From Gelidibacter pelagius (GTDB lineage Bacteria > Bacteroidota > Bacteroidia > Flavobacteriales > Flavobacteriaceae): a stretch of DNA of 47,258 nt. The translations under genes were made by a program, and so were the position numbers. The DNA is taken from the NCBI RefSeq assembly GCF_017581925.1, contig NZ_JAGEVG010000027.1:1-47258 (forward strand). The letters are read 5' to 3'. Every line of letters starts with the position of its first letter. Position 1 is the stretch's first letter. The notes under the pieces were generated by a model. The model worked only from the letters and a program-made list of their open reading frames with translations. It had not been told where the DNA came from and ran no database searches. Shown here in pieces: positions 14,155 to 36,682 of the stretch.

Positions 14155-14205
14155 TTGACCTATATCAATGTTTTTTAGGATTCTCTATATGATATTTGCA
14201 CTAAT
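14155..14205 (+). promoter_or_regulatory. Crp/Fnr-type operator and promoter of the ankyrin operon
   Basis: TTGACCTATATCAA (14155-14168) is an FNR-like dyad, TTGA-N6-TCAA. Exactly 22 bp later comes GATATTTGC (14191-14199), one base from the TAnnTTTG -7 box. With a start site about 6 bp past the box, the operator centre falls near -43, the usual place for a class II Crp/Fnr activator. The tolC promoter at 36639-36682 has the same layout with identical spacing. Confidence 0.7.
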
Positions 14206-14223
14206 AATAAGTAACTAAGAAAA

Positions 14224-14916
14224 ATGTCAACTATCAAAACTATTAGTGTTGTATTTTATTTCGCATTATTCGGTCCATTAAGCGTGTGTGCTCAAAAAAC
14301 AATAAAAACAAATAATACATTGGAAATGGAGTTTATTAAAGCCGCAAAAAATAACGACACCGAGAAGCTTCAACACTTTATAAAAGAAGGTGTTGCAATT
14401 AATGCCATGGATGCTCATAAGAGAACAGCCTTAATGGTGGCAACTTATGAGAACCATGTAAATGCATCCAAACTACTTATCGAAACCGGTGCTGATGTCA
14501 ATGCACAAGATGATCGTTTGGAAAGTCCATTCCTTCATGCCGGTGCCAGAGGATATTTGGAGATTCTTAAGGCCTGTCTCGCTACAGGTAAAGTTGACCA
14601 TATGGTATTGAACCGATACGGTGGCACAGCCTTGATTCCTGCCTGTGAAAGAGGGTATACAGAAGTTGTGCAGGAATTACTAAAAATAGAAGACTATCCC
14701 ATAGACCATATTAATAATCTGACCTGGACGGCTTTAATGGAAGCCATTGTTCTGGGCAACGGGGGCAAAACACATACACAAATTGTTCAATTATTGGTAA
14801 ATGCTGGCTGTGATGTTAACATTCCAGACAAAAACGGAATTAGTCCCCTTAAGCACGCAAAAAAAAGTGGCTATAAGGAGATTGTAGCTATTTTAGAAAA
14901 AGCCGGAGCCAAATAA
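14224..14916 (+). CDS. Exported ankyrin-repeat protein
   Basis: 230 residues. Signal peptide about 1-23 (FALFGPLSVCAQ), then roughly five ankyrin repeats (KRTALMVATYENHVNASKLL, SPFLHAGARGYLEILKACL, GGTALIPACERGYTEVVQEL, WTALMEAIVLG, GISPLKHAKKSGYKEIVAIL). Ankyrin proteins act as binding scaffolds. In bacteria, periplasmic ones are often paired with oxidoreductases or detoxifying enzymes. First gene of an operon: the amidohydrolase starts 14 bp downstream. Probably activated by a Crp/Fnr protein through 14155-14168. Confidence 0.85.
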   Translation: MSTIKTISVVFYFALFGPLSVCAQKTIKTNNTLEMEFIKAAKNNDTEKLQHFIKEGVAINAMDAHKRTALMVATYENHVNASKLLIETGADVNAQDDRLESPFLHAGARGYLEILKACLATGKVDHMVLNRYGGTALIPACERGYTEVVQELLKIEDYPIDHINNLTWTALMEAIVLGNGGKTHTQIVQLLVNAGCDVNIPDKNGISPLKHAKKSGYKEIVAILEKAGAK

Positions 14917-14930
14917 AAATATAAAAGCTT

Positions 14931-16352
14931 ATGAAAACACTCTATTTATTTCTAATTGGCAGTTTGCTTTTGACAGCCTGCAAAAAGGAACGAGAATCTC
15001 TAAAACTTGATATTCTTATCAAAGATGTTCATATCGTCAATACTAAAACTGGCGCTCTTATAAAAAATCAAAGCATAGGGATCAACGCCGACACCATTGC
15101 GAAAATAGCTCCCTTAGACCAGTCAATTAATTGGACGGCAGATAAAACTGTAATTGCTAAGGACAAATATGTGATTCCCGGTTTATGGGATATGCACATG
15201 CATTTTGGGGCGGACACCCTAATCAGCGAAAACAAAAACATGTTGTCCCTTTATTTGGCCAATGGTGTGACTACTATAAGGGATTGCGCCGCAGATATAA
15301 GTCCCAGTGTCTTAAAATGGCGTAAACAAATCGATAAAGGAGAACTTATAGGCCCAACCATCTTTACCTCAGGACCTAAAATAGAAGGAAAAAACTCTAT
15401 CTGGCCGGGTGATATGGAAATTGAAAACGAGGAAGAATTGAGTACAGCTTTGGATTCCTTAGATAAACTTCAAGTAGATTTTGTGAAAATAACGGACAAC
15501 GCCCTGTCGCCTGAACTGTTTTTGAAAAGTGTTGAAAAAGCCACCCAACGAGGTTATAAAACCTCTGGTCACATCCCTTTTGCATTGCCAATTAATGAGG
15601 TATCGAAAGCGGGCTTGACCACCATAGAGCATATGGGATATATGCTGAAAGCAGGCGCAGCCAATGAATTGGAGATTATTGAAAAATATAAAAAGGGAGA
15701 GCTAGATTATAGCACGGCAAGTGCTCTAATGAACCAAAGTTTTGACGAAACAACGGCCTTAAACAAATACCAACAACTGGCTGAAAATGGAACGGCCATC
15801 GTGCCCACTTTAATTGGCAATAGAATAATCTCCTATTGGAATGAAGATGACCATCGTGATGATCAAGAGTTGCAATACATAGGGCCAGGCATAATAAAAA
15901 CGTACCAAGGACGTGTAAATAGAGCGAAAGAGGCATCGTCAGAGGCCATAGAAGCTCGGCAAAAGAATTACCAAAAACTCGTCAGTTTGATACCTACAAT
16001 TAAAGCATCAGGGATGCTCATTATTGCTGGAACCGACGCTGGTTTTTTAAACTCTTATATTTATCCAGGCTTTGCTTTGCACGACGAGCTTGAAATTTAT
16101 CAAAAAGCTGGTCTAACACCTTTGGAAGCGCTTCAAACTTCGGTTATCAACGGACCTAAATATTTTGGACTTTCCGATAAATACGGAAGTGTCACTGAGG
16201 GCAAAATAGCCGATTTGTTAATCCTGAACAGCAATCCTCTTGATGATATTAAGGCCACGAGAGCTATTGACTACCTAATAAAGAAAACAATGGTTTATGA
16301 TAAGTCGCAATTGGACGCAATGCTACAAGATGTAAAAAATCTTTATAATTGA
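14931..16352 (+). CDS. Amidohydrolase-superfamily lipoprotein
   Basis: 473 residues. Lipobox LLLTAC (Cys17). Metal-dependent amidohydrolase: IPGLWDMHMHFG supplies the HxH metal pair (His89, His91), KTSGHIPF and TIEHMGYM supply further metal histidines, and IAGTDAGF supplies the catalytic aspartate. The final KYGSVTEGKIADLLIL is the usual return to the beta-sandwich domain. It resembles imidazolonepropionase/prolidase-like amidohydrolases acting on cyclic amides or peptides; the substrate is unknown. Probably anchored facing the periplasm, in operon with the ankyrin protein (14 bp) and the deaminase (75 bp). Confidence 0.85.
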   Translation: MKTLYLFLIGSLLLTACKKERESLKLDILIKDVHIVNTKTGALIKNQSIGINADTIAKIAPLDQSINWTADKTVIAKDKYVIPGLWDMHMHFGADTLISENKNMLSLYLANGVTTIRDCAADISPSVLKWRKQIDKGELIGPTIFTSGPKIEGKNSIWPGDMEIENEEELSTALDSLDKLQVDFVKITDNALSPELFLKSVEKATQRGYKTSGHIPFALPINEVSKAGLTTIEHMGYMLKAGAANELEIIEKYKKGELDYSTASALMNQSFDETTALNKYQQLAENGTAIVPTLIGNRIISYWNEDDHRDDQELQYIGPGIIKTYQGRVNRAKEASSEAIEARQKNYQKLVSLIPTIKASGMLIIAGTDAGFLNSYIYPGFALHDELEIYQKAGLTPLEALQTSVINGPKYFGLSDKYGSVTEGKIADLLILNSNPLDDIKATRAIDYLIKKTMVYDKSQLDAMLQDVKNLYN

Positions 16353-16427
16353 ACAATAGCCTTCCCAGATTTATGAGGTAGTGACAGCTGAATTTTTAAG
16401 GTATGAATTAAATTAAATAGAAAAATT

Positions 16428-17042
16428 ATGAAATTATTCCCATTAACATTAGGACTGATATTAACAAGTGCGATTGTATTTGGACAATCCCACAGTCAAC
16501 AAAATAGGCTAACGAATCAAAATCAAGAGATTATGTCGAAAAACAACACAGCTTCGGATCCTGAATATACAGCAACAGACTTGAAGTTCTTACAACGATG
16601 CTTGAGTCTGGCAGAGGAAGCTTTGGATGCTGGCGATCAGCCATTCGGGTCTATTCTTGTCAATGCCGATAATGAAATTATAGCGGAAGCCAGAAACCGA
16701 GTCAATGAAAAAAATGTATTGGCGCATCCAGAAATTGAACTTGCCGTATGGGCCATGGAGAATTTAAGTCTTGAAGAGCGACGTCAAACCATAATGTACA
16801 CCACAGGAGAACATTGTCCGATGTGTGCCGGAGCTCACGGTTGGGCAGAGATTGGTTCACTTTATTTTTTGCATTCAGCAAAACAATTGGGCACATGGTT
16901 AAGTGCTCTGGGTGTAGGTCCTGCACCTATTGAATTTATCCCTGCTGAAGACATCATGAAAAATGCAGTTATCAAAGGACCTGGAAAAGGCGAAATGCTT
17001 AAAGAGATCCAGCAAATGCACGAACGTTATTATCAAGATTAA
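16428..17042 (+). CDS. Nucleoside-deaminase-like protein with signal peptide
   Basis: 204 residues. Residues about 48-165 form a cytidine/guanine-deaminase-like domain: FGSILVNADNEIIAEARNRV, a zinc and proton-shuttle motif HPE (His100, Glu102) instead of the more common HAE, and EHCPMCAGAHGWAEIG with zinc Cys130 and Cys133. All catalytic residues are present. The N-terminus (FPLTLGLILTSAIVFGQ) is a convincing signal peptide, unusual for this family. An internal ATG at 16533 would give the ordinary cytosolic form. Its upstream partners are also exported, which favours the long form. Confidence 0.8.
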   Translation: MKLFPLTLGLILTSAIVFGQSHSQQNRLTNQNQEIMSKNNTASDPEYTATDLKFLQRCLSLAEEALDAGDQPFGSILVNADNEIIAEARNRVNEKNVLAHPEIELAVWAMENLSLEERRQTIMYTTGEHCPMCAGAHGWAEIGSLYFLHSAKQLGTWLSALGVGPAPIEFIPAEDIMKNAVIKGPGKGEMLKEIQQMHERYYQD

Positions 17043-17103
17043 ACTTACAAATTACTATTTGAGATCAGTTCGTTCTATAAATAAAGGATTAAATAAGTCC
17101 TCT

Positions 17104-17130
17104 AAGGTACGAGCATTCTGCTCGTGCCTT
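17104..17130 (+). repeat. REP-like hairpin after the deaminase gene
   Basis: AAGGTACGAGC (17104-17114) pairs with GCTCGTGCCTT (17120-17130) around a 5-nt loop, an 11-bp stem with one G-T pair. This is the best-preserved stem of the REP-like family in the left half of the window. It lies 60 bp after the stop and has no strong T-run. Confidence 0.75.
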
Positions 17131-17224
17131 AATCAAATTATCCTATTCCTTTTAATTCCCACCATTGGGTTTTAATACCCCGAGGTCTTTGATTTGTAGT
17201 AATCGCTATCGTTACAATGTCAAC

Positions 17225-17465
17225 ACCAATGGTTAGGAGCCTATTTTCCATAATTATCATATCCGTAATTGATATGTATGAACCTGCTTTTAGGGCGATC
17301 TAACACTGTTTTACACGATAGTTTTCTGAAATTTACTATCTTGGTTAATTCCCAATGCGTATCTGTACTGGTCATCACTAAAATATCAAAGCTGTTTTTA
17401 TCCTGTGCATACCATGGCATAAAGCTAAGTTTTTGACTGGTACAAATAAGTTATAACCAATTAAA
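17225..17465 (+). repeat. Long intergenic repeat unit with leader
   Basis: 17228-17336 aligns with 6786-6893 and 13210-13321 (TTAGGAG, TCCATAATTATCATATCCGT). TATCTTGG is at 17337-17344. The leader follows (CCAATGCGTATCTGTACTGG ... GACTGGTACAAATAAGTTA), as in the copies at 2.88 and 8.43 kb. This copy carries every part of the composite unit. Confidence 0.6.
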
Positions 17466-17510
17466 ACCAAGAGTCTCGGGAAAATAAAAATATTTAAAAC
17501 AGAAAGAAAC

Positions 17511-18350
17511 TTGAAATTTATAGGTCAAAATAAGGAGTATATAGAACTAGTTGAGATTAATAAATCGAATGCAAACCTACTTAACGATACCAAAGAAAGT
17601 GAGTTATCACTGATTTGGTTTAAAGCAGATAACAATAAAGTGACTATTGATGCGGTTGATTATGTTTTCAACACCAATGATATCATCAGTCTGACCGAAT
17701 TTCATACCATCAATGCAGAAAGCCTACAAGAGGCCACTTTCATTAAATGGAATAGGTCCTTTTACTGTGTGGTGGATCACGATAGTGAAGTAGGTTGCAA
17801 AGGCATATTATATTACGGCGCTTCTACGGTTCCTATTATAAGTCTTGATGAAAAGCACGTTGATATTTTAACCACCTTGTTTAAGATGTTATATATTGAA
17901 ATGGAATCGAGAGATAATTTGCAATTGGAAATGCTGCAGATGATGCTCAAACGCCTTCTCATTTTATGTACACGTATTTACAAAGACCAAAACTTGGTGT
18001 CTAATTTGAGAACACAAAGTATTGATACCATTAGGGAGTATAATTATCTGGTAGAACAACACTTTAAAACAAAGCATACGGTAAAGGCCTATGCTGATCT
18101 GTTATTTAAATCTCCAAAAACACTATCTAATCTATTTAAAAAATACGGTGATACAACACCGCAACAATTTATTCAAAATAGGTTGATGCTTGAAGCAAGA
18201 CGAATGTTGACCTATACCGAAAAACCTATTTCTGAAATAGGTTTTGAACTGGGATTTTCAGACTTACAAAGTTTTAGTCGTTTTTTCAGCACACAAGAAG
18301 GCCATTCTCCACAAAAATTCCGAAACAGGGAAGTATTGCCAACAAAGTAG
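17511..18350 (+). CDS. AraC-family transcriptional regulator, TTG start
   Basis: 279 residues. No ATG is available near the N-terminus; TTG 17511 follows an A-rich leader with AGAAAG. The N-terminal 150 residues look like a cupin-type sensor (LIWFKADNNKVTIDAVDYVF). The C-terminal domain has both AraC helix-turn-helix units (TVKAYADLLFKSPKTLSNLF, PISEIGFELGFSDLQSFSRF, then GHSPQKFR). It is immediately upstream of a CMD-domain gene that has its own -7 box, which is the likely target. Confidence 0.85.
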   Translation: MKFIGQNKEYIELVEINKSNANLLNDTKESELSLIWFKADNNKVTIDAVDYVFNTNDIISLTEFHTINAESLQEATFIKWNRSFYCVVDHDSEVGCKGILYYGASTVPIISLDEKHVDILTTLFKMLYIEMESRDNLQLEMLQMMLKRLLILCTRIYKDQNLVSNLRTQSIDTIREYNYLVEQHFKTKHTVKAYADLLFKSPKTLSNLFKKYGDTTPQQFIQNRLMLEARRMLTYTEKPISEIGFELGFSDLQSFSRFFSTQEGHSPQKFRNREVLPTK

Positions 18351-18385
18351 GTAGTATTGATTAGCTCCCAAACGCCCTTCCACAT

Positions 18386-18393
18386 TACCTTTG
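18386..18393 (+). promoter_or_regulatory. -7 promoter box of the first CMD gene
   Basis: TACCTTTG matches the Bacteroidota -7 consensus TAnnTTTG exactly, 38 bp before the ATG of the gene at 18431. No clear -33 TTTG is present at the usual distance, which fits an activator-dependent promoter, possibly the neighbouring AraC protein. Confidence 0.55.
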
Positions 18394-18430
18394 TACTGTA
18401 AGAAATTAATAACTTTTAAAACAGTATAAA

Positions 18431-18973
18431 ATGAAAGATGTCACTAAGATTACCGTCCCAAGTAGAACAGATGTTAACGAAAAGAGTCAACAGATTTTTG
18501 ATCAAATGGAGTCTCAATTAGGAATGGTTCCTAATTTATATGCCACCATTGGCTATTCCAGCAATGCCTTGGAAAACTTCTTATCCTTTTCAGGAAATGC
18601 AGGAAAAGGCAGTTTCACAAATAAAGAAATAGAAGCGATTAAGCTTGCCGTTTCTCAAGCTAATGGCTGTGTTTATTGTCAATCGGCCCATTCGGCTATT
18701 GCTAAATCCCACGGATTTTCGGACGAAGAAACCGTCCAGTTAAGAAACGCCACCATTGCAGACCCAAAGTTAAAAGTGCTTACCACCATGGCGAAACAAG
18801 TGGCTGAGAAAGCAGGATATATTGATGCTGATGTGAGAGAAGCTTTTTTCGATCAAGACTATGATGCAAAGGCTATGATGGACTTCCTTGCTGTAGTAAC
18901 CGCCATTACTTTTACAAATTATGCCTATGCGCTTACTAAAGTTGATGTTGATTTCCCTTTGGTAACCAACTAA
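18431..18973 (+). CDS. Carboxymuconolactone decarboxylase family protein (AhpD-like)
   Basis: 180 residues. The CMD core EIEAIKLAVSQANGCVYCQSAH has the redox CxxC pair Cys80/Cys83 with His87 four residues on, as in AhpD peroxidases. Cytosolic. Such proteins reduce peroxides or act on reactive small molecules; the YciW/PA2674-type subfamily of about 180 residues is poorly characterised. The gene is followed by a strong terminator at 19037-19075. A second CMD protein of the same length class is encoded at 19775. Confidence 0.88.
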   Translation: MKDVTKITVPSRTDVNEKSQQIFDQMESQLGMVPNLYATIGYSSNALENFLSFSGNAGKGSFTNKEIEAIKLAVSQANGCVYCQSAHSAIAKSHGFSDEETVQLRNATIADPKLKVLTTMAKQVAEKAGYIDADVREAFFDQDYDAKAMMDFLAVVTAITFTNYAYALTKVDVDFPLVTN

Positions 18974-19036
18974 AAATATAGGCCCTATAATATATTGCAT
19001 AAACACAAAACTTGAATTAACATCCAGGATAAGTAG

Positions 19037-19076
19037 AATAACGGCTCCTTGTAGAAAAGAGCCGTTATTATTTTAA
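19037..19076 (+). terminator. Rho-independent terminator
   Basis: AATAACGGCTC (19037-19047) pairs perfectly over 11 bp with GAGCCGTTATT (19059-19069) around an 11-nt loop, followed by a short ATTTT tract. It closes the AraC/CMD unit ahead of the TetR gene. Confidence 0.85.
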
Positions 19077-19108
19077 ATGAGAAATAAATGTTAAACGCTT
19101 TCTTGTTT

Positions 19109-19130
19109 CTAAACGCTTGTTTAGTTTTGC
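19109..19130 (+). promoter_or_regulatory. TetR operator overlapping the tetR promoter
   Basis: CTAAAC-GCTT-GTTTAG (19109-19124) is a perfect inverted repeat. It overlaps TAGTTTTGC (19122-19130), an exact TAnnTTTG -7 box, 17 bp before the TetR ATG. The same palindrome occurs at 19729-19744 before the next gene. This is the arrangement expected for autorepression. Confidence 0.8.
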
Positions 19131-19146
19131 ACTATAATTAGAACTA

Positions 19147-19710
19147 ATGGCAAGAAAAAAGGAATATAATGAAGAGGAGGTCGTCGAAAAAGCAATGGAG
19201 CTATTTTGGCGCAATGGTTATGAAAACACCTCCATGCAAATGCTCGAAAAGGAAATGGGGATTAATAAGTTTTCCATTTATTCGAGTTTTGGCAGTAAGA
19301 ATGGCTTATTTCTGGAAAGTCTTAAATGCTACAAGCAAAGGCTATCAACTTTGATGAGCAAGTTGGAGAACTCCTCCGACGGACTACTAAGCATCAAACA
19401 CTACTTTTATGATTTTCTCGAGTTTTCGAAGGACAATGAACTTAGCAAAGGATGTTTGGTTACGAATGCAGCTAACGAATTGGGTGAAACTCCAGATGTA
19501 GAAATTCAAGAAGCTTTAGTCCAGTTTACCAATGGCGTTAAACAATTGTTTACCACTATTTTAAAACAAGATTCCGAGAAAAATGAATTAATAGTTGAAG
19601 CACAAGCCGACTATTTACTTATTGCTATGTATGGTCTTTCATCAGCAAGTAGAGTATTCACTGCAATCCAATTAGAAAACTATATAGAACATACATTTAA
19701 GAATCTCTAA
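19147..19710 (+). CDS. TetR/AcrR family regulator
   Basis: 187 residues. The N-terminal TetR HTH is clear (EEEVVEKAMELFWRNGYENT, MQMLEKEMGINKFSIYSSFG, KNGLFLESL). The C-terminal ligand domain has KGCLVTNAANELGETPDVEI, the signature of the subfamily that includes YcdC/AcuR-like and NemR-like regulators. Those regulators often sense electrophiles and can carry redox-active cysteines; a Cys is present in GCLVTN. Palindromic operators on its own promoter and before the following operon suggest that it represses both. Confidence 0.88.
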   Translation: MARKKEYNEEEVVEKAMELFWRNGYENTSMQMLEKEMGINKFSIYSSFGSKNGLFLESLKCYKQRLSTLMSKLENSSDGLLSIKHYFYDFLEFSKDNELSKGCLVTNAANELGETPDVEIQEALVQFTNGVKQLFTTILKQDSEKNELIVEAQADYLLIAMYGLSSASRVFTAIQLENYIEHTFKNL

Positions 19711-19726
19711 TATTTTTTTATCCCAA

Positions 19727-19746
19727 AACTAAACGAGTGTTTAGTT
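19727..19746 (+). promoter_or_regulatory. TetR operator before the CMD/FrnE operon
   Basis: AACTAAAC-GAGT-GTTTAGTT is a 20-bp palindrome with 8-bp arms. Its inner CTAAAC-N4-GTTTAG (19729-19744) is the same site found on the tetR promoter. It ends 28 bp before the ATG of the CMD gene. Confidence 0.8.
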
Positions 19747-19774
19747 ATTTTTTAACAATTAAAAATTCACAATT

Positions 19775-20341
19775 ATGACAAGTTTAAAAATTCACAACAT
19801 AGAAACTGCTCCAACTGAAAGCAAAACATTATTAGAACAATCTCAAAAAGCAAACGGTATGATCCCAGGATTGCACGGTGTATTGGCTGGATCACCAGGT
19901 ATTCTTGAGGCCTACCAAGCCCTACATAAATTGTTCATTGATTCTTCTTTTAACAATGAAGAATTGACTGTGGTATGGCAAACGATAAACGTAGAACATG
20001 CCTGTCACTATTGCGTTCCAGCACATACAGGAATCGCGAAAATGATGAAGGTTGATGATGCTATTACGGACGCCTTACGGAATGGAACACCACTTAAAAA
20101 TGCGAAATTAGAAGCATTACGAACCTTGACATTAACTATTGTTCGCAATAGAGGACATGTGACCCAAAAAGACTTAGAGGCGTTTTATGCTGTTGGTTAT
20201 GGCGAAAGACAGGTCTTGGAAATCATATTAGGCTTGTCTCAAAAAATAATCAGTAACTATACCAACCATATTGCAAATACACCTGTAGATGCGCCTTTCC
20301 AAAAATATGCCTGGTCTAAGGACGATGTGGTTTCCAAATAA
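19775..20341 (+). CDS. Carboxymuconolactone decarboxylase family protein, second copy
   Basis: 188 residues. CMD core VWQTINVEHACHYCVPAHTG has Cys77, Cys80 and His84 (CxxCxxxH), so the AhpD-like thiol pair is complete. The sequence is only distantly related to the CMD protein at 18431. First gene of a five-gene operon behind a TetR operator, and expected to be induced by the TetR ligand. Likely role: reduction or breakdown of a reactive organic compound, working with the FrnE-like thiol protein encoded next. Confidence 0.87.
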   Translation: MTSLKIHNIETAPTESKTLLEQSQKANGMIPGLHGVLAGSPGILEAYQALHKLFIDSSFNNEELTVVWQTINVEHACHYCVPAHTGIAKMMKVDDAITDALRNGTPLKNAKLEALRTLTLTIVRNRGHVTQKDLEAFYAVGYGERQVLEIILGLSQKIISNYTNHIANTPVDAPFQKYAWSKDDVVSK

Positions 20342-20407
20342 TACTAACACTTGCTTTAAGTCTTCCGCTTCGTTGTGGAAGGCTCAGCAATCAACAAATA
20401 CACAACA

Positions 20408-21067
20408 ATGAAAGAGAAATTAAAAATAGATATCGTTTCAGATGTGGTTTGCCCTTGGTGCACCATAGGCTACAAACGTTTAGAAAAAGCCATTAACGAA
20501 CTTGGCATTCAGGATCAAGTGGAAATTGAGTGGCAACCTTTTGAGTTAAATCCGAATATGCCTGCCGAGGGTCAAAATCTAAGGGAACATATTGCAGAAA
20601 AATATGGGTCTACTTTAGAGCAACAAAAGGCCTCACAACAAAACATGGCCGAAGCGGGAGCAGCGCTCGGTTTTACATTCGACTATTTTGATGACATGCG
20701 CATGGCCAATACTTTTGATGCCCACGTATTATTAGACTATGCCAAAGCTTTTGGTAAGCAAACCGAATTAAAAATGGGCCTCACAAAAGCCTTTTTTAGC
20801 GACCGGAAGGATGTGTCAAAAAGAGAGGTTCTCAAGGAAGTATTATTGGAGGTTGGTTTAAATGCTGAAGAAGCTTTCACAAAAATAGACGATGCCAAGG
20901 TGCGGAACGAAGTCAAAAGCCAGGAAGCTTATTGGCAAAGTGTAGGAGTCAACTCTGTACCAACTATTGTGTTTAACAGAAAAAGTGCGATTACCGGTGC
21001 TCAACCTGTAGAGGTGTTTAAGCAAGTGTTAACTGAGATTCTTGAATCTTCAAAACAGGGCAGTTAG
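20408..21067 (+). CDS. DsbA-family oxidoreductase, FrnE-like
   Basis: 219 residues from ATG 20408; a GTG at 20375 is possible but gives a non-conserved extension. Thioredoxin fold with active site DVVCPWCTIGYKRL (Cys15, Cys18) and the helical insert typical of FrnE/2-hydroxychromene-isomerase-like proteins (EWQPFELNPNMP, FSDRKDVSKREVL). It ends with the cis-Pro region VNSVPTIVFNRKSAITGAQP. No signal peptide, so a cytosolic disulfide oxidoreductase. FrnE homologues are linked to oxidative-stress resistance and polyketide chemistry. Operon member, 66 bp after CMD. Confidence 0.88.
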   Translation: MKEKLKIDIVSDVVCPWCTIGYKRLEKAINELGIQDQVEIEWQPFELNPNMPAEGQNLREHIAEKYGSTLEQQKASQQNMAEAGAALGFTFDYFDDMRMANTFDAHVLLDYAKAFGKQTELKMGLTKAFFSDRKDVSKREVLKEVLLEVGLNAEEAFTKIDDAKVRNEVKSQEAYWQSVGVNSVPTIVFNRKSAITGAQPVEVFKQVLTEILESSKQGS

Positions 21068-21103
21068 TCCTTCGATTTTTAAATTGAATGTCAAGACAAC
21101 AAA

Positions 21104-21901: not shown

Positions 21902-21929
21902 AACCACTATTCATTAAATAAAAAACATC

Positions 21930-26268: not shown

Positions 26269-27873
26269 TTATGCGCTGAAGTACTTCTGAACCAATGCCA
26301 GCAGTGTACTTCTTTTAATCGGCTTTAACATATATTCGTTGCAGCCCACTCCCATGGTCTTTTCCTTATCTTCTGAAAGTCCAGAGGCGGTTTGTGCAAT
26401 AATGATCACCTCTTCATTAAATTGACGTATTTGTCGGGTGGCTTCAAAGCCGTCCATCACTGGCAATTGGATGTCCATTAGAACTAAGTCAATGTCAGGG
26501 TGGTTTTTGAGAACATGAACAGCTTCCTGACCCGTTTTTGCTTCAAAGATCATACTGCTCACTTTTTTGACGTAGGTGGTGATGAGCAGTCTCGAAACTT
26601 CGTCATCCTCAACTATTAATGTTTTTAATTTTAAATCTTCGACAGTGGCACTTTGTTGCTTTCTTTTAAAACTACCGTTATTTTGACCACCAGTTTTGTC
26701 GCGTTGTTCTGTGCGATAGGGTAGTGTGAAATAAAAGATTGAACCTTTGCCTTTTTCACTAGCAATCCAAATTTTTCCTCCCAGCAATTCTACATAGGCT
26801 TTAGAAATTGGTAGGCCCAAACCAGCGCCCTGTAAGTCCATATTATTTGAAACCTTTATCTGTCTGAACCGTTCAAATATGGACAGATGTTTGTTTTGTG
26901 GAATTCCAAATCCGGAATCTTTAACATAGAACTCGACCAAAGAAGTTTGCTGATCTGTTTTGATTACATATCCCATTTCAATATTTCCTGTTGCTGTATG
27001 CTTAATGGCATTCTTTACCAGATTGCCAAGAATGGAATAGATCTTTTCGACATCAGAGTTAATAGTGGCATCTTTATCTGCTAACGGTTTCTTCGTGGTA
27101 AAACCTAAACCTTTGAGCTCTGCCTCGTGTTTAAAAAAATTGTAGATGAAGTCAATTTTATAATTGATATTCACCTCCTGCAAATGGGCCTCCAATAACC
27201 CAGATTCTATCTTAGCCATGCTGATAATATCGTTGATGATATTGAGCATTCGCAATCCGCTTTTTTTGATTATTTCAATATACTCTTGCTGCTTTTCTCC
27301 TGTAAGCTGCGGTTCTTTCAACAGATCGCAAAAACCCAGAATGCCATTCATGGGAGTGCGTATTTCATGGCTCATATGCGCCAAAAAAGCCGACTTAAGT
27401 TGCTCACTGTCTTCTGCAACTTGCTTAGCCTGAATCAATTCGATAGCTCTTTTCTCTTTTTCTCGATTTTGAAATAAAAGCTCTTGGTTCGCCCTCATGA
27501 GTTCGGTGGCTCTTTTCTCTTTTTCTTCATTTTGAAACAGCAGTTCCTTATTGGCAATACTCAATTCTGCGGCACGCTTAGATTTCTCATTGTTCTGGTA
27601 GACAAGTTCAATATTTGCGGCAACCAAATCGGCAGCACACTTTTCTTTTTCTTCACTGAGAAACTTAATCTCCAAATTGGCAAGTATCAATTGGGATGCG
27701 CGTTTTGCTTTTTCTAAGTTTTCAAGGCTGATATTGTGAAGGGCATTTTCTAATTCTTCATTAAGCTGCCTACGTTTATTGGTATCAATACCTTTTATGG
27801 AATTCAAAAAATCGTCTTGTAATTCCTGCAGCTCTTCGCGAAGTTCTTCTTTATTCTTTCCCTGATTATTCAT
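26269..27873 (-). CDS. Hybrid sensor histidine kinase/response regulator with 21-residue coiled-coil repeats
   Basis: 534 residues, no membrane segment and no known sensor domain. Residues 53-157 are five tandem 21-residue repeats (pattern EKEKRAxELxxANxELLFQNE), three heptads each, forming a long coiled coil. HisKA follows (FLAHMSHEIRTPMNGILG, phospho-His169), then HATPase (DSGFGIPQ, GAGLGLPISKAY). A C-terminal receiver (about 413-530) has LVLMDIQLPVMDG with the phospho-Asp near 465 and a conserved Lys in EYMLKPIKR. The signal probably comes from a partner protein. No cognate regulator gene is adjacent, so it may feed a phosphorelay. Confidence 0.9.
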   Translation of the reverse strand: MNNQGKNKEELREELQELQDDFLNSIKGIDTNKRRQLNEELENALHNISLENLEKAKRASQLILANLEIKFLSEEKEKCAADLVAANIELVYQNNEKSKRAAELSIANKELLFQNEEKEKRATELMRANQELLFQNREKEKRAIELIQAKQVAEDSEQLKSAFLAHMSHEIRTPMNGILGFCDLLKEPQLTGEKQQEYIEIIKKSGLRMLNIINDIISMAKIESGLLEAHLQEVNINYKIDFIYNFFKHEAELKGLGFTTKKPLADKDATINSDVEKIYSILGNLVKNAIKHTATGNIEMGYVIKTDQQTSLVEFYVKDSGFGIPQNKHLSIFERFRQIKVSNNMDLQGAGLGLPISKAYVELLGGKIWIASEKGKGSIFYFTLPYRTEQRDKTGGQNNGSFKRKQQSATVEDLKLKTLIVEDDEVSRLLITTYVKKVSSMIFEAKTGQEAVHVLKNHPDIDLVLMDIQLPVMDGFEATRQIRQFNEEVIIIAQTASGLSEDKEKTMGVGCNEYMLKPIKRSTLLALVQKYFSA

Positions 27874-30735: not shown

Positions 30736-30804
30736 AAATCTTGATGTTTTCAGAATCGCAATAAAGAAGTGACCGCAAATAATTAGGAAGGATAACGTTT
30801 TTTC

Positions 30805-30885
30805 CAAAGTATTTGGCTTATCGCTTTAGCACCTTGCTTGTTATTGCAGGTTGCTACCTCTTGTTTGAGATTCTTGATAATTAAG
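30805..30885 (-). promoter_or_regulatory. SAM-riboswitch-like (S-box/SAM-I-IV-type) leader
   Basis: Read on the minus strand: TTATCAAGAATCTC (from about 30880), AAACAAGAGG, then AGCAACC, TGCAATAACAAGC, AAGGTGCTAA, AGCGATAAG. AGCAACC...AAGGTGCTAA is the P4/core signature of S-box RNAs, ACCTGC/GCAAGGT forms the P4 hairpin, and TTATC/GATAA closes P1. The P2 kink-turn and long P3 of classical S-boxes are missing, so it would be a compact variant. It starts a few bases after the -7 box and ends about 75 bp before the ATG; CCAAA/TTTGG just after could be the switching helix. Confidence 0.55.
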
Positions 30886-30888
30886 TGT

Positions 30889-30897
30889 GCAAAAATA
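30889..30897 (-). promoter_or_regulatory. -7 promoter box of the NhaC-family gene
   Basis: TATTTTTGC on the minus strand is an exact TAnnTTTG box. Transcription would begin about 30882-30884, placing the riboswitch-like fold at the very 5' end of the RNA, as expected for such elements. Confidence 0.6.
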
Positions 30898-30924
30898 GGA
30901 GTTTATGAGTGGTAAACCTAAAGT

Positions 30925-31080
30925 TTTGAGACACGAATTTCACGAATTGTCACGAATCCATTTGTCTGCTGAAAACAGACTAAATAAGAACTATTCATTT
31001 CACGAATGTAGAAGGCTTGCACGGATTATCACGAATTCAATTGTTACCTATATGATAACTATTCATTTCACGAATGGGAT
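30925..31080 (+). repeat. CACGAAT-rich dispersed repeat
   Basis: Six exact CACGAAT units (30932, 30941, 30951, 31001, 31030, 31069). The 20-mer AACTATTCATTTCACGAATG occurs twice (30989-31008 and 31057-31076). No coding potential. Confidence 0.8.
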
Positions 31081-31176
31081 TAGCTTATGGGGATTTAGAT
31101 TTCAACAAGCTCAATATTTAAGGGCAGGAATTCTCTGATAATTTGGAGGTTTATTATTTACGAACTGATCTAAATT

Positions 31177-31323
31177 CTCCTCCTTTTTAAGGAGGAGTGG
31201 CTTCTGCTTCAGAAAAGAAGCAGATGGCGAGGTGGTTCGGAATGTGATAAAAGCATTATTCAACCGCGCAAGGGCTCTTTTCCATTCCATCTCATATGGC
31301 GCGAGTGTCCCGCTCGTGTCCAC
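31177..31323 (+). repeat. Composite hairpin repeat ending in a REP-like element
   Basis: CTCCTCC/GGAGGAG (31177-31197) and TCTGCTTC/GAAGCAGA (31203-31224) form two hairpins, followed by GGCGAGGTGGTT and AAAAGCATTATT. The last part reappears beside the RAYT at 32971-33050. GGCGCGAGTGTCCCGCTCGT (31299 onward) is a full REP-like hairpin with a 10-bp stem. Confidence 0.75.
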
Positions 31324-31385
31324 TCACATCAAATCATTATTTATCAGTAAATCCAGTTATACTTATGCCTTTGAATATGAAATAC

Positions 31386-32075
31386 CTACTCCGATTCCCA
31401 AATGCGTTTTTGAGCCGTTCCGAAAGCACCCAATTGATACACCCCAATCGCTGCGGCCTGAAACTTTTTAGACTGGAATTGATTCTGTGCCAAACTATCC
31501 AATAAAGTAGTCTTAGCCACGCCCAAGCTGATATGTGGATTATAATGCTCATAGCTATGGGCACTCACAAATTTGGGTACATAGGCCAGAGTAAAATCAT
31601 CTATGGGTGTCCCATCTGCAGTTTGCACATACGATACTTGAGAGCCGTCAGGAATCATATATGGTTCTAAAAGCGTGATGGTTTGTTCGTGAAGTGCCAT
31701 TAGTGACGGACTTCTTTTAATGCCAATGGACGCGAAACTCTCGGTCTTATCTTTAGAATATTGTAGCTCATCTGCCCAAAGACTATCATTTTCTATGGTT
31801 TTATAAAGTCCGTTTAATGCTTGCTCAATTTTGGACAAATCACTTTCTTTAACATAACACTGCAATAAAGTGATGTGTGGAATATGATGGTCGTCCAAAG
31901 AGATATTGTCAGGGTGCTTTTCCAATATCGCTCGATTTAGTTGAACGGATTGTTGATACATATCCTCAGGAAGTGTGAGCATCACACCGATGGCTATTGT
32001 TTTTTCCTGCTTTTGAGCACAGGAACTGATTAGCGTGATGACTAAGAATGTTATGATTAGGGAATATTTATTCAT
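31386..32075 (-). CDS. 2H phosphoesterase-superfamily lipoprotein
   Basis: 229 residues. Lipobox ITLISSC (Cys19). The two diagnostic HxTx/HxSx motifs are present and correctly spaced: HIPHITLLQ (His67, Thr69) and HYNPHISLG (His181, Ser183). 2H enzymes (2'-5' RNA ligase/ThpR, cyclic phosphodiesterases) act on 2',3'-cyclic or 2'-5' RNA phosphates and are usually cytosolic. Here the lipoprotein signal implies a periplasmic or surface location, where it might act on nucleotides from outside the cell. Stand-alone gene flanked by repeat DNA on both sides. Confidence 0.8.
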   Translation of the reverse strand: MNKYSLIITFLVITLISSCAQKQEKTIAIGVMLTLPEDMYQQSVQLNRAILEKHPDNISLDDHHIPHITLLQCYVKESDLSKIEQALNGLYKTIENDSLWADELQYSKDKTESFASIGIKRSPSLMALHEQTITLLEPYMIPDGSQVSYVQTADGTPIDDFTLAYVPKFVSAHSYEHYNPHISLGVAKTTLLDSLAQNQFQSKKFQAAAIGVYQLGAFGTAQKRIWESE

Positions 32076-32248
32076 TTTTGAAGATATCAGTGAGTTTCGA
32101 GATTTAAAGGATGGGAATTTAGTAAAGAATTAGATGGAATGCTCAATTTGAGATGGGTAAATTTAATATTTGCCAGATTAGCATGGGCTGGACACGTCAG
32201 AGCTATTTTGTTTTTGTGATGAATGACTTTTCGGAATTAAGATTCATC

Positions 32249-32277
32249 TGCTGGCGCGGGCGTCCCGCCCGTGTCCC
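32249..32277 (+). repeat. REP-like hairpin downstream of RAYT 2
   Basis: GGCGCGGGCGTCCCGCCCGT (32253 onward) folds as GCGCGGGCG-TCC-CGCCCGTGT, 9 bp including G-T pairs. It lies 46 bp past the RAYT stop codon and is in inverted orientation relative to the copy at 32945-32970. Confidence 0.85.
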
Positions 32278-32322
32278 GGCATTCTCATAACAATTATATC
32301 AAATCTAAAATACGTAAAAAAA

Positions 32323-32880
32323 TTATCCAAGAAATCCAATATTATCAATCGGGATGACTGCGTCGAGTTCGGCATAATTACGGGCGCTACTGTGTTTCCA
32401 TTCCCATGGTTCGATAACTAATCCTGCTTTTACAGGATTGTTATGGATATAATCAAATTTTTCCTTTATTACATGAGTGCTCCATAACTCTATAGGCTGG
32501 TTATTCTGTTGCCAAAACTGATATTCTTTTATATTACTGTTCTTTTCTCCTGCTCTTTTACACACCCATAGCATCCATTCGCGCCTGCTCTCTTGGGGAT
32601 GTTCCAAAATGCTTGCAATCATCTTTTTGGAAGTGAAACCTTTGAAATCCCTTATCAATCCCGAAGGATTTTCGTTGTCATCCCGAAACAAAAGATGAAT
32701 ATGATTTGGCATAATACAATAAGCAAATAGGGCCATTCCTTTATTATTTCGGCAAAAGTCTAAGCTATCCGTAATGACCTTGAAATATGCTTCACGGGTA
32801 AATACATCGACCCAATTAACTACGGCAAAGGAAACAAAATATGCCGCCGAAGGATTGTGGAATTTATATTTTCTACTCAT
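32323..32880 (-). CDS. REP-associated tyrosine transposase (RAYT 2)
   Basis: 185 residues. Y1/IS200-like: FHNPSAAYFVSFAVVNWVDV at the N-terminus, HUH motif MPNHIHLLFR (His60, His62), and a tyrosine motif FDYIHNNPVKAGLV. It ends with the W-x-SSARNY segment typical of the flavobacterial RAYT clade. It differs clearly from the copy at 7782. The gene sits between two REP-like hairpins in inverted orientation, 46 and 65 bp away, a classic REPtron-like arrangement, and so this is the likely source of the GGCGCGAGCG-type repeats in the window. Confidence 0.9.
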   Translation of the reverse strand: MSRKYKFHNPSAAYFVSFAVVNWVDVFTREAYFKVITDSLDFCRNNKGMALFAYCIMPNHIHLLFRDDNENPSGLIRDFKGFTSKKMIASILEHPQESRREWMLWVCKRAGEKNSNIKEYQFWQQNNQPIELWSTHVIKEKFDYIHNNPVKAGLVIEPWEWKHSSARNYAELDAVIPIDNIGFLG

Positions 32881-32944
32881 GAGATTATGGTAAAAAATAA
32901 AGATAGTACAATTACTGATAATTCAGTTCGGTTTATTCTTATGA

Positions 32945-33055
32945 AGGCGCACGAGCGGGACGCTCGCGCCAGCCTCTGCTTCCGGAGAGAAGCAGAAGGC
33001 CCGCCTCTCCGTCGGGCAGGCGAGGTGGTTTTAAATTTGCAAAAAGCATTATTAT
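32945..33055 (-). repeat. REP-like hairpin upstream of RAYT 2 plus adjoining hairpins
   Basis: On the minus strand GGCGCGAGCG-TCC-CGCTCGTGCG (32970 down to 32948) is the best REP-like copy in the window. Next to it TCTGCTTC/GAAGCAGA and a CCGCCTctccgtcgGGCAGG stretch, then GGCGAGGTGGTT and AAAAAGCATTATTAT, duplicate the block at 31203-31260. It separates RAYT 2 from the end of the ABC permease gene. Confidence 0.85.
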
Positions 33056-33083
33056 ATCTAACACAAACCAATTCTTACAAAAC

Positions 33084-34259
33084 CTATCCCTCCACAACCA
33101 AACTTTGCTTCTTAGCCGTTTTATTCACTTTAAATTGTAGCAATAACACCATCGCTACAAAGGCAACAACCGTAATGAGCGACAAGATCCTGATCTCTGA
33201 TGCAATGGATGCCAAATCACCTCCATAAAAAGCAATTCTTCTAAAGCCGCTCAAAAACTGGGTCACTGGAATGAATTGCGCCACACCCGTAATCCATCCA
33301 GGAATGGCTTCTGTAGGCCAAGTGAATCCGCTCAATATAAAAGCAGGCGTAGAGATGACCATCAGTAATTCGGTAGCTTTTAATTGGTTTGGAATGGCAA
33401 CCGAAAACAACATCCCGATCATCATTGACGCTAAAGTCAGCAGTACAGTCAATACCAACATTGGGAAGTTAAAAATATCTGCAGTAATCTTGAAATACGG
33501 AAAGTACATGGCAACTACGAACCAAATAAATGGCAACATGATCAAGAATGGCGTTGCTTTTAATAAAATAAGATATAACGCCGATTTCTTCTTTTCTACT
33601 AAACTGGCAAAATAACCATCTTCAAAATCCCTCGAAAATGCTAAAGCCACCGCTAAAAAAATGATTTGTTGCATAATGGCTGCCAAGATGCCCGGGAGCA
33701 TAAAGTTGACGTAGTTGCCGGCAGAGTTATAGAGTTTGTTGAAATTGATCTTAAACGTTTCGTAAGAAGCTTTGGCTTGGTCTGGATGCATGCCTTGCTT
33801 TTTAAGACCTTCGATTTCCATACCTGCATTTAAAGTCATCAAAACCATATTGATATTGTTGCTGGCCGTATTGGCGTTGAGGATGTTGGCCATATTTAGG
33901 TCCACCCGAATTTCAGGATGCCTTTTTTGAAGCACATCTTTTTCAAACCCTACAGGGAGGGTTACGACGGCGGCATATTGCTCAATAGGCATTTCTTCCA
34001 ATAGATTGCCTGGCGTTGATCGTACATCCTTAACCAACAACCCCTCGTTATCCATAAAAGCATCAATGATCATGTCTGTGGTTGGGCTTTGGTCCTGATC
34101 GACAATAACAATCGGTAAATCAAGGACTTTTGCCTGTTGATATACATAACCGAAAATAATCCCGTAGCCTATTGGCGCAGCAAAAAAGATGGCCATCAAG
34201 ACACCATTTGAGAAAATACGCTTAAATTCTACTTTAAGTAAGTTCTTAAAAGTCTTCAT
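33084..34259 (-). CDS. ABC-2 type transporter permease
   Basis: 391 residues. N-terminal helix (NGVLMAIFFAAPIGYGIIFG), a large periplasmic domain (about 45-170: DLPIVIVDQDQSPTTDMIID, AAVVTLPVGFEKDVL), then five membrane helices with the ABC-2 signature (STPAFILSGFTWPTEAIPGW). It matches the YhhJ/YbhR family that, with an ATPase, HlyD and TolC, exports drugs or other small molecules. It starts 3 bp from the HlyD gene end, so it is translationally coupled. No ATPase gene is present in this operon. Confidence 0.88.
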   Translation of the reverse strand: MKTFKNLLKVEFKRIFSNGVLMAIFFAAPIGYGIIFGYVYQQAKVLDLPIVIVDQDQSPTTDMIIDAFMDNEGLLVKDVRSTPGNLLEEMPIEQYAAVVTLPVGFEKDVLQKRHPEIRVDLNMANILNANTASNNINMVLMTLNAGMEIEGLKKQGMHPDQAKASYETFKINFNKLYNSAGNYVNFMLPGILAAIMQQIIFLAVALAFSRDFEDGYFASLVEKKKSALYLILLKATPFLIMLPFIWFVVAMYFPYFKITADIFNFPMLVLTVLLTLASMMIGMLFSVAIPNQLKATELLMVISTPAFILSGFTWPTEAIPGWITGVAQFIPVTQFLSGFRRIAFYGGDLASIASEIRILSLITVVAFVAMVLLLQFKVNKTAKKQSLVVEG

Positions 34260-34262
34260 CGG

Positions 34263-35222
34263 TTATTGTTTTATAAGAATGGTGGCGTTAACATAAAATT
34301 GTTGATCGCCCGTGTCTGAAGTCGGTACCACTTTCAGTTCATAAATAGATTCTGAAAGCTCATATAAAGGTGAGGTGCTGGTAATATCCGCATATTGCGC
34401 CAGCTGTTTGATGGCGACGATTTTGGCCCTTGTTTCATCTTTGGTATAAGGATTGACCAAGGTCAATTCCTTTCCTACTTTATAATCATAAATCCGTGAT
34501 TCTGGAATCGTGAATCGGAAATACATACCATCCGTTTTGTAGCCGTTGAACAAGGCATAACCGGGAGTCAGCAATTCGCCTTCCTCCAAACTAATGGTCT
34601 CAACCGACATGTCAGCTGGGGCGATGACGTATTGTTCATCAGATGCCGACATGACTTCCTTCTTGGCACCGAGTGCTCTGTCCAATTGGCCTTGGGCTTG
34701 TTCTATCTGTTCTGAGCGTGCCCCTTTTCTTATTTCGTCGCGTTTGGCTTCCAAAGCATCAACTTGCGCCTTTGCCATTTGGAGTTTCATCTTGACTTCA
34801 TCAAATTGCTGTTGGCTCACTAAAGAATCTTGATACATATTTTGCAATCGGTTATACGATTCCTGGGCAAACTCCATTTGTGCTTTTCCTGAGTTTAATT
34901 GGCCCTCAATCTGATTGAGTTGTTCTGTAGTTGCCCCATTAAAAGCCAAATTCAATTGGCCTTGGGCGGCAGTAATGGCGCCTTCAGCTTGCATCAATTT
35001 CGCACTCACTTCAGGAATATTGACCAAGGCAAGCGTATCGCCCTTTTTGACCTTTTGTCCTTCCTTAACGTAAATTTTATCAATCCGACCGGCAATTTTA
35101 CTGCTTACTGAAATTGTTTCAAATTTCACTTTCCCTCGGTTGGGAGTGATCTGATCGTTTTTACAAGAATTTAAAGTGATTAGTGCCAAAAAGCTAATAA
35201 GAATGTGTGTATATGTTTTCAT
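34263..35222 (-). CDS. HlyD-family membrane fusion lipoprotein
   Basis: 319 residues from ATG 35222; the open frame runs back into the tolC gene, but this ATG opens a clean lipoprotein signal (LALITLNSC, Cys20). Biotinyl-lipoyl halves (KIAGRIDKIYVKEGQKVKKG and VETISLEEGELLTPGYALF) flank a long alpha hairpin (about 70-180, rich in QxQLN and AKxQVDALEAKRDEI). It links the inner membrane permease to TolC across the periplasm. Second gene of a three-gene operon, 19 bp after tolC and 3 bp before the permease gene. Confidence 0.9.
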   Translation of the reverse strand: MKTYTHILISFLALITLNSCKNDQITPNRGKVKFETISVSSKIAGRIDKIYVKEGQKVKKGDTLALVNIPEVSAKLMQAEGAITAAQGQLNLAFNGATTEQLNQIEGQLNSGKAQMEFAQESYNRLQNMYQDSLVSQQQFDEVKMKLQMAKAQVDALEAKRDEIRKGARSEQIEQAQGQLDRALGAKKEVMSASDEQYVIAPADMSVETISLEEGELLTPGYALFNGYKTDGMYFRFTIPESRIYDYKVGKELTLVNPYTKDETRAKIVAIKQLAQYADITSTSPLYELSESIYELKVVPTSDTGDQQFYVNATILIKQ

Positions 35223-35241
35223 GGTTTGATTTTGTGTTGGA

Positions 35242-36612
35242 TTAATAAGTGAGTACGCCTTTGGCATGAAGCATTTCAGCCACTGCACGTCTTTCGTTAA
35301 AATAGGATTCCTGTAATTTGAAATTGGCTTTTTCAACGTCATTTAAAGCATCGAGCACATCATTGATGGATGCTAAATTGTTACGGTATTGTTTATCGAC
35401 CATCTCATAAGTATCATTGGCCAATTCAATTTCCTTTTCAACAATTTTTGTGTTTTGCAACGCTGACTGATACTTCAGTTCTGCTTTGGTGATGCTCAAT
35501 GCAATCATTTCTTCAACATCTTCAATTTGGTCTCTATAGCGCTCACTTTCTAAGGTCGCCTTTTTACTTTTCAATCGGGATTGGTTCCCATCGAAGACAT
35601 TCCATTTAATGCCGGCTCCAATAAACCATTTCGGATCCAATAAGGATAAGTCATCCTCAATAAATTCGTAATGTCCTTTTACAGCCACTTTAGGAATGAA
35701 ATTACTTTTCGCCATTTTTGCTTGGTAGAGCGTTGCTTTTTCAGCTTCTTCCAAGGCTTTTACCTCGTTCCGTTTTTCTGTAGTAGTGGCGTCGGTATTA
35801 GCAAACGCCTGTAACTCTGGTTCCAGAAGTCTCAAGTTGGCTTTAGGTTCCCCCGTGAGTTGATGGAGCAATTCAATCAGCATGATGTTATTATGATCAA
35901 ATTCCAATTGTTTGGCTGCCAATTGCTGTTGGGCAAGCTCTAATTTCTTTCGGCTGAGTGGCGTGGTCAAGCCATTCTCTATGGCCTTTTTGACATAAAA
36001 GATCTGCTCGTTTAAATATTTTTCGGAAGTAATCAATACTTTTTTTGATGCTTTAACAAGGGCCAATTTATCATAAGCTTCTATGATTTGTAGGGCGACT
36101 TTGTCTCTCTCTGCCAATCCTAAATAATTCAATGAAGTTTCCTTATGTCTGCTCGCCTTAAGGGCATTACTGGCCTCAAACCCGCTAAACAACACCCAAT
36201 CCAAATCGACGGACGATTTTAAGATGTTCTTGTTTTGAAGGTTTGGCACCGCCTCCAATGGAATATTATCGGGAAAAGGCGAATTGAACGGCAATCCAAC
36301 AGCATCTTTAATAACCAATTTTTGGGTGGCGATCAATAAGTTTTGAGTGTTGTCATCAAAAGTAATGTCATCGTCCAATCGAACAAAGCTCCCATTAAAG
36401 GTGATTTTTGGTAAGAATACGGATTTGGCCAACTGCTGATCGACTTGCGCTTGTTCGGCATCAATACGATTGGAGTTTATTTGATGGCTCTTATTCAATC
36501 CTTTATGGATTAAGTCCTGCAGCACCGGATCGAGTTGCTGTGCGGTAATAACCGACGGCAGTGCAAGTGCTAGGACCAGAAACATCTTTAAGACGATTGT
36601 ATTTTGGTTCAT
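35242..36612 (-). CDS. TolC-family outer membrane efflux protein
   Basis: 456 residues with a signal peptide (FLVLALALPSVITAQQ). Two OEP repeats, each with long helices and an N-terminal conserved segment (SHQINSNRIDAEQAQVDQQL; ANDTYEMVDKQYRNNLASIN near the C-terminus), and strand pairs such as LDWVLFSGFEASNALKA. It forms the trimeric outer membrane channel of an efflux complex. First gene of the operon; a Crp/Fnr-type operator lies 57 bp upstream of its start. Confidence 0.9.
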   Translation of the reverse strand: MNQNTIVLKMFLVLALALPSVITAQQLDPVLQDLIHKGLNKSHQINSNRIDAEQAQVDQQLAKSVFLPKITFNGSFVRLDDDITFDDNTQNLLIATQKLVIKDAVGLPFNSPFPDNIPLEAVPNLQNKNILKSSVDLDWVLFSGFEASNALKASRHKETSLNYLGLAERDKVALQIIEAYDKLALVKASKKVLITSEKYLNEQIFYVKKAIENGLTTPLSRKKLELAQQQLAAKQLEFDHNNIMLIELLHQLTGEPKANLRLLEPELQAFANTDATTTEKRNEVKALEEAEKATLYQAKMAKSNFIPKVAVKGHYEFIEDDLSLLDPKWFIGAGIKWNVFDGNQSRLKSKKATLESERYRDQIEDVEEMIALSITKAELKYQSALQNTKIVEKEIELANDTYEMVDKQYRNNLASINDVLDALNDVEKANFKLQESYFNERRAVAEMLHAKGVLTY

Positions 36613-36631
36613 TGTTGATGGTTTTTATAAA

Positions 36632-36682
36632 TATAAGGCAAAGTTGAGGAAAATTTGAGGGAATTCCTTTGACATAGGTCAA
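36632..36682 (-). promoter_or_regulatory. Crp/Fnr-type operator and promoter of the tolC operon
   Basis: On the minus strand TTGACCTATGTCAA (36682-36669) is followed, after exactly 22 nt, by CAACTTTGC (36646-36638), one base from TAnnTTTG. A start near 36632 puts the operator centre at about -43. The operator differs in one base from that at 14155-14168 and has identical spacing to its -7 box. A Crp/Fnr gene lies about 500 bp upstream. Confidence 0.7.

Follow-up and report, generated by a model that had tools for sequence, protein, structure and literature searches.

Two near-identical operators in a Gelidibacter pelagius contig as probable local circuits of adjacent Crp/Fnr genes

FNR class II promoters combine TTGA half sites, a Glu and an Arg in the recognition helix of the regulator, and an operator at -41.5, which is the class II activator position for CRP/FNR. 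In Bacteroides and Porphyromonas, a comparable circuit is described (PMC1274295, PMC13370916). The predicted regulon of HcpR is hcp alone in most Bacteroides (PMC1274295), and deletion of hcpR in B. thetaiotaomicron abolishes hcp transcription (preprint PMC13370916). The 2005 CRP/FNR study further correlates residues 180 and 181 with operator bases, distinguishes four main regulator groups, and reports that NssR, with Gln181, reads TTAACnnnnGTTAA (PMC1274295). Here we analyse a window of 47,258 nucleotides (nt) from Gelidibacter pelagius, which is one whole contig (NZ_JAGEVG010000027.1) of a 4.49-Mb genome, and in particular two predicted operators, one before an ankyrin-repeat operon and one before a tolC operon. 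With a probability of about 0.8, as judged from sequence, each site is a class II operator of the adjacent Crp/Fnr gene (crp1 or crp2), and the window would hold two local regulator-operator-target circuits. The elements are as follows.

13581..14150, plus strand: crp1, short Crp/Fnr-type regulator of 189 residues (PF00027, 5.3e-12)
14155..14168, plus strand: predicted operator TTGACCTATATCAA, 4 nt past the crp1 stop codon, identical in the genus genome G005
14191..14198, plus strand: -7 box GATATTTG, TTTG beginning 26 nt past the operator, predicted transcription start at about 14203
37163..37825, minus strand: crp2, short Crp/Fnr-type regulator (PF00027, 1.8e-14), likely start ATG at 37720 (185 residues)
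36669..36682, minus strand: predicted operator TTGACCTATGTCAA, 480 nt past the crp2 stop codon, spacing kept in all nine genus genomes searched
36639..36646, minus strand: -7 box CAACTTTG, TTTG 26 nt past the operator, predicted transcription start at about 36634

Both operators are 14-bp palindromes that differ by a single base, and both are separated by a spacer of exactly 22 nt from the 8-base -7 box, which corresponds to 26 nt between operator and TTTG. The sigma-A box of Bacteroidota, TAnnTTTG, is present at both sites with one mismatch each, in the first T. The initial annotation had described operators one base apart, 22 nt before a near-consensus -7 box and each near a Crp/Fnr gene. 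The coordinates and spacing are confirmed in the sequence, and a same-strand gene with a cNMP_binding domain lies upstream of each site (4 and 480 nt). The initial annotation had also placed the operators near -43, which we revise to -41.5: mapped starts of F. psychrophilum put the sigma-A box at -12 to -5 (PMC9723704), and by this map, borrowed from another genus, both 14-mers would span -48 to -35.

The window circuits and FNR promoters share the TTGA half sites, the helix Glu and Arg and, probably, the operator position. They differ in that FNR has a cysteine cluster, a global regulon and a -10 promoter, whereas the window regulators have a local target and a -7 box of the TAnnTTTG type. 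The helix of Crp2, LGMTQETLSRIRK, carries Glu and Arg like FNR in the FNR alignment, and its QETLSR is that of a standard TTGA reader. The helix of Crp1, LGMSPSTLSRTK, contains PSTLSR, with Ser in place of the Glu of FNR and CRP. HcpR-hcp likewise has a Crp/Fnr gene beside its target and a palindromic 14-mer operator, but it is unlike the window regulators in its HcpR2 motif GTAACnnnnGTTAC, Pro at 181, haem binding and its target hcp (PMC1274295, PMC13370916).

The exact sites are rare. The motif TTGACNTATNTCAA has two exact matches in the whole G. pelagius genome, which are the two window sites, both beside a crp gene, and none in the backward control. Among 300 dinucleotide shuffles of the window, TTGACNTATNTCAA is absent from 298 and occurs once in two, and TTGACNTATNTCAA plus a -7 box occurs in 0/300. 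Relaxed matches behave differently. With up to two mismatches to TTGACNTATNTCAA, the window has 17 matches against a shuffle mean of 9.63, a mild excess (4/100 shuffles reach 17). In the genome, the full architecture with two mismatches gives 13 matches against 8 backward controls, and a broad regulon of such sites is rejected as mostly noise. A looser genome scan (TTGAN6TCAA, 19-25 nt, ANNTTTG) gives 13 matches, most of which do not resemble the window sites, against 3 in the backward control. When both strands of the window are scanned for five-pair palindromes lying 26 nt ahead of TTTG (box A included), the tolC site is the sole match; with four pairs there are six matches, three of which have the form TT..AA, namely both sites and one at 26917.

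The two sites follow their neighbouring regulators through the genus. The tolC site and its spacing are present in 9/9 genus genomes, exact in eight and with one mismatch in G001, and tblastn places tolC directly behind the site in all nine and in G010, from another genus. A crp2 orthologue (75-92% identical) is present in each of the eight other genus genomes. The ankyrin site is present in 2/9 genomes, the window's own and G005, which are exactly those with a close crp1; in G005 the operator and box are retained and the spacer between them has diverged. Seven genus genomes have the tolC site and no close crp1 (best other matches at most 34% identical), indicating that crp1 is not needed for the tolC site. 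Among 59 relatives and 395 class genomes, crp1 has matches of at least 49% identity only in G005 (92%), G039 (51%) and G278 (49%). The search for loci related to crp1 returned two, one in Gelidibacter maritimus and the other, in Aequorivita, holding a distant paralogue with 29% identity. All four members of the group of Crp1 relatives with at least 49% identity (the window's own L016, and L017, L018 and L076) have a TTGAC left arm at the same 26-nt spacing; the L076 site, with 3/5 pairs, was spotted by eye and missed by the scan described below. The right arms vary (TCAA, TCAA, GCAA and ACAA), as expected because Crp1 is of a type without Glu. G004 has one more site, with one mismatch, behind another Crp/Fnr gene.

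The same layout is found behind related regulators. It was first noticed in about 50 loci. These were then included in a set of 210 distinct Crp/Fnr family genes, drawn from the G. pelagius genome, its relatives and other genomes of the class (218 matches; L161 yielded none). The scan was blind to the operator letters: it sought a 14-mer whose outer five positions on either side pair with each other, located -6 to +250 from the crp stop codon and followed by TTTG exactly 26 nt on. Such a five-pair site is present downstream of 54 genes, on the opposite strand in one and upstream in none, against a shuffle mean of 0.85 (maximum 3). When one unpaired position is allowed, the counts are 104 downstream, 8 on the opposite strand and 11 upstream (shuffle mean 9.2, maximum 15). 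In this first set, the density of five-pair sites is 1.2 per kb behind crp and 0.03 per kb elsewhere in the loci on both strands, and TT..AA palindromes peak at a gap of 26 nt, with 49 cases, while no other gap between 0 and 60 has more than 5. Grouped at 60% identity, the genes form 123 clusters, of which 41 have a five-pair site and 1 has one on the opposite strand; for four-pair sites the numbers are 74 and 8. A hold-out of 86 genes outside the first set (from 88 loci in class genomes, a few of these genomes having also supplied genes to the first set; the loci were found with three query proteins) gives 25 versus 1 five-pair sites, 42 versus 2 with one mismatch, and five-pair densities of 1.4 versus 0.035 per kb.

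Of the 146 pooled hits, 33 have an operator beginning 1 nt ahead of the stop codon and 110 one beginning between -6 and +20, and stop codon and half site may share bases (TTGA with TGA, TTAA with TAA). In 142/146, an ATG open reading frame of 55 codons or more, counting those open to the locus end, begins within 160 nt; the median distance from TTTG is 24 nt. From these sequences, the layout seems to recur behind about half of the related Crp/Fnr genes examined in the same bacterial class. On balance, we favour the view that class members carry many paralogous short Crp/Fnr proteins as private, cis-encoded one-target switches, with the operator at or over the regulator's own stop codon and an invariant 26 nt to TTTG.

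With each operator next to its regulator gene, the binding sites of the family would in effect be self-annotated. The operator arms covary with the helix residues equivalent to CRP 180, 181 and 185. These numbers are from PMC1274295 and were placed on the helix by the FNR alignment and the CRP helix. The tables comprise 144 of the 146 site-positive genes (two have no aligned helix), and each leaves out the rows whose two arms disagree. When the 181-equivalent residue is Glu, Arg185 goes with G at operator position 3 in 58/59 and other residues at 185 with non-G in 24/30. With Arg at 185, position 4 is A in 62/63 for Glu181 and in 19/39 for non-Glu. Gln, Asn or Val at 181 goes with non-G at position 3 in 25/25, and Arg at 180 with GTGA in 2/2 versus 0/60. 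Part of the Gln class matches the reading of TTAACnnnnGTTAA by NssR (PMC1274295). Compared with the 2005 study, the present analysis concerns 144 genes of one short family, finds that 185 also covaries, and locates the operator by place and symmetry.

The main classes were fixed before the hold-out genomes were fetched; the scored rules were written after fetching the loci and before the operators were read. The 36 predictions of the first four arm letters comprise 20 TTGA, 7 TTAA and 9 TTA followed by A, C or T; the GTGA, ATAA and TTGC/TTGT classes stood outside the scoring, and six further sites carried no prediction. Both arms are as predicted in 31/36, one arm in 2 and neither in 3. Across 10,000 permuted pairings, the number correct averages 15.8 and never exceeds 26; a constant guess of TTGA gives 21. 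For hold-out genes less than 50% identical to any first-set gene, 16/20 match. Of the three full misses, one is probably a false site and the other two have the helix AEFMSK and an operator that reads TTGAAG where TTAA was predicted. Operators of the form TTGAA..TTCAA accompany the helices AEFMSK, HEFLSK and HEFVSR (L323, L326; L027, L138, L150, L162, L180).

Taken with the sites, these patterns suggest how the two circuits may work. Crp1, charged with its effector, would bind 14155-14168 and, from -41.5, recruit sigma-A RNA polymerase to the TAnnTTTG-type promoter of the ankyrin, amidohydrolase and deaminase genes; Crp2 would act likewise at 36669-36682 on tolC, hlyD and the ABC permease. Each site would thus serve the upstream Crp/Fnr gene as its class II activator operator and would exemplify a one-regulator-one-neighbour layout widespread among short Crp/Fnr proteins of the class, in which the operator usually abuts or overlaps the regulator stop codon, as at crp1; that of crp2 is 480 nt off. 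The sites with their spacing and conservation, the layout across the family and the covariation of helix and operator are read directly from sequence; binding, activation rather than repression, and the pairing of each operator with its binder are what we infer here.

The initial annotation had joined the two operons in one class II regulon of detoxification and efflux. Its operator type, class II-like geometry, nearby regulator and target types are supported, but the single regulon is not: one regulon for both operons is rejected as the lead explanation, because there are only two exact sites, the ankyrin site tracks crp1 and the tolC site tracks crp2. The window operators are probably alike because both helices are of TTGA-reading types. 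The form in which this idea could survive is a small shared detoxification-efflux regulon with Crp2 driving both promoters. The single-base difference between the operators and the full Glu/Arg reading pair of Crp2 would fit it, as would the G001 genome, in which the Crp2 orthologue precedes TTGATATAGGTCAA, the exact reverse complement of the window ankyrin operator, and the G006 genome, which has a further exact TTGACCTATATCAA promoter without a close crp1 (1/9 genus genomes), before a gene that we take to be patatin-like. We nevertheless consider it unlikely, as the ankyrin site occurs only together with crp1, 4 nt behind it (2/9 genomes), 4/4 close Crp1 relatives own a local site, and the G. 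pelagius genome has no further exact site.

It is more doubtful still that the sites are repressor operators or are bound by a different Crp/Fnr protein, for example the genome's own Fnr-like protein of the classical kind. Classical Fnr proteins, too, recognise half sites of the TTGA type, and ATGACTTATATCAT stands exactly 26 nt before TTTG in 9/9 genus genomes (own genome C7:10325-10368; L106, L107 and L113 near 1501), in the three loci read before what we assume to be an oxygen-independent coproporphyrinogen oxidase-like gene, hemN; perhaps a classical Fnr-like regulator uses the same geometry there. However, the exact 26-nt distance points to -41.5, the position of a class II activator, and the operator letters vary with the recognition helix of the neighbouring regulator instead of conforming to a single motif throughout the genome. 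Chance likeness of short AT-rich palindromes is hardly credible. The weak matches are indeed mostly noise, as the two-mismatch counts given above indicate, but the exact sites with a -7 box are absent from all shuffles, 9/9 genomes keep the tolC site and spacing with diverged spacers, and the spacing peak is family-wide.

Several observations weigh against two local circuits and the layout behind them. No such site lies behind 106/210 and 44/86 of the Crp/Fnr genes scanned, nor behind L019, a Crp1 relative of 40% identity. The genes without a site include the window's crp2 and three genus orthologues, whose site is past the 250 nt scanned, and chance would account for about 9 of the 104 looser hits. 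The code is incomplete, as the two AEFMSK failures show. Supported branches yield only 1 to 5 independent pairs, too few for significance, and at position 4 these average 1.4 with and 0.5 against the code; with so few pairs, some contrary, shared ancestry may inflate the covariation tables. The near-identical operators make cross-binding by Crp1 and Crp2 possible, and the mirrored G001 operator indicates the same possibility of cross-recognition. The value of -41.5 depends on the start-site map of another genus.

Crp1 and Crp2 qualify as members of the Crp/Fnr superfamily. The N-terminal cyclic-nucleotide-type sensor domain (PF00027) is above cut-off in both. No Pfam helix-turn-helix model matches either protein at 0.001, and the C-terminal helix-turn-helix of Crp2 is assigned by alignment only, to an FNR chain through ETxSR. 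By inspection, neither has an N-terminal cysteine cluster for [4Fe-4S], indicating that they are not E. coli-type FNR. Crp2 scores 33.7 bits against NCBIfam Fnr (cut-off 228), and Crp1 and Crp2 score 25.2 and 31.3 bits against NCBIfam CRP (cut-off 266), indicating that they are not the cAMP-activated equivalog. The nearest solved chain to Crp1 is PDB 3dn7 (Cyclic nucleotide binding regulatory protein; 1.3e-21 for Crp1, 8.8e-22 for Crp2), which belongs to the same short family; its helix TPEYLSEIR makes it a predicted TTAA reader, unlike the window regulators with TTGA. Another short Crp/Fnr protein, with the helix PESLSR (L108; own genome C14:86619-86662), has a weaker site behind it, for example TTAACATACATCAA or TTATCATACATCAA, and this type of site or a one-base variant is present in 7/9 genus genomes; in L108 it precedes genes that are presumably YceI-like and pirin-like. 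PESLSR is the commonest helix class without a local site (19 genes).

The putative targets in the window are as follows.

14224..14916, plus strand: ankyrin-repeat protein, first target of crp1 (Pfam Ank_2, 2e-27), apparent signal peptide by eye
14931..16352, plus strand: amidohydrolase (PF01979, 1.1e-20), apparent lipoprotein by eye
16428..17042, plus strand: deaminase (PF14437, 8.8e-14; PF00383, 6e-13), apparent signal peptide by eye
35242..36612, minus strand: tolC-like outer-membrane efflux protein, first target of crp2 (PF02321, 1.1e-39)
34263..35342, minus strand: HlyD-type periplasmic adaptor (PF16576, 3.3e-9; TIGR01730, 2e-27, above cut-off)
33084..34259, minus strand: ABC-2 type permease (PF12698, 1e-29)

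The hlyD frame as called overlaps tolC, and its true start is probably an internal Met near 35222. No ATPase gene directly adjoins tolC-hlyD-permease (window 32323-34259); the next genes on the same strand past the permease encode a Y1 (IS200-like) transposase and a protein without an NCBIfam match. Another such palindrome, TTGACCAAGGTCAA, lies within the hlyD frame at 34453-34466, with no box at 26 nt. The Crp1 relatives L018 (2177 onward) and L076 precede what we take to be apparently exported transthyretin-like/5-hydroxyisourate-hydrolase-like and HbpS-like proteins. With the exported deaminase and amidohydrolase at 14224-17042, periplasmic purine breakdown is a possible theme.

For the family, the target scan covers 131 of the 142 first target genes; 11 near-duplicate or doubtful rows were omitted, and many targets are cut to about 130 residues at the locus end. 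In the best 25 of 90 families, 13 are carboxymuconolactone-decarboxylase-like, 6-7 NmrA/epimerase, 5 HbpS-like, 5 short-chain dehydrogenases, 4 YceI, 4 glyoxalase, 4 SnoaL_2, 3 of the old-yellow-enzyme type and 3 outer-membrane efflux proteins, as raw, overlapping tallies. This fits a detoxification theme for the Crp/Fnr family overall, without a shared regulon.

Crp/Fnr regulation, class II promoters, single neighbouring targets, as in HcpR-hcp, and the correlation at 180/181 are already known. Our full-text searches, which mostly exclude subscription journals, brought up no account of the fixed layout, nor of a recognition code for the short family. To our knowledge, neither a target nor a signal has been assigned to most of the Crp/Fnr paralogues in these bacteria. 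With the operator directly behind the regulator, orphan regulators become regulator-operator-target triples whose DNA targets are readable from the genome. The layout gives natural data on how a helix reads DNA; if true, the full three-residue recognition code would be readable from genomes and testable at once. It also supplies activators, possibly orthogonal to one another, as a parts list for use with promoters of the phylum. In the window, the presumed regulon is replaced by two testable local circuits.

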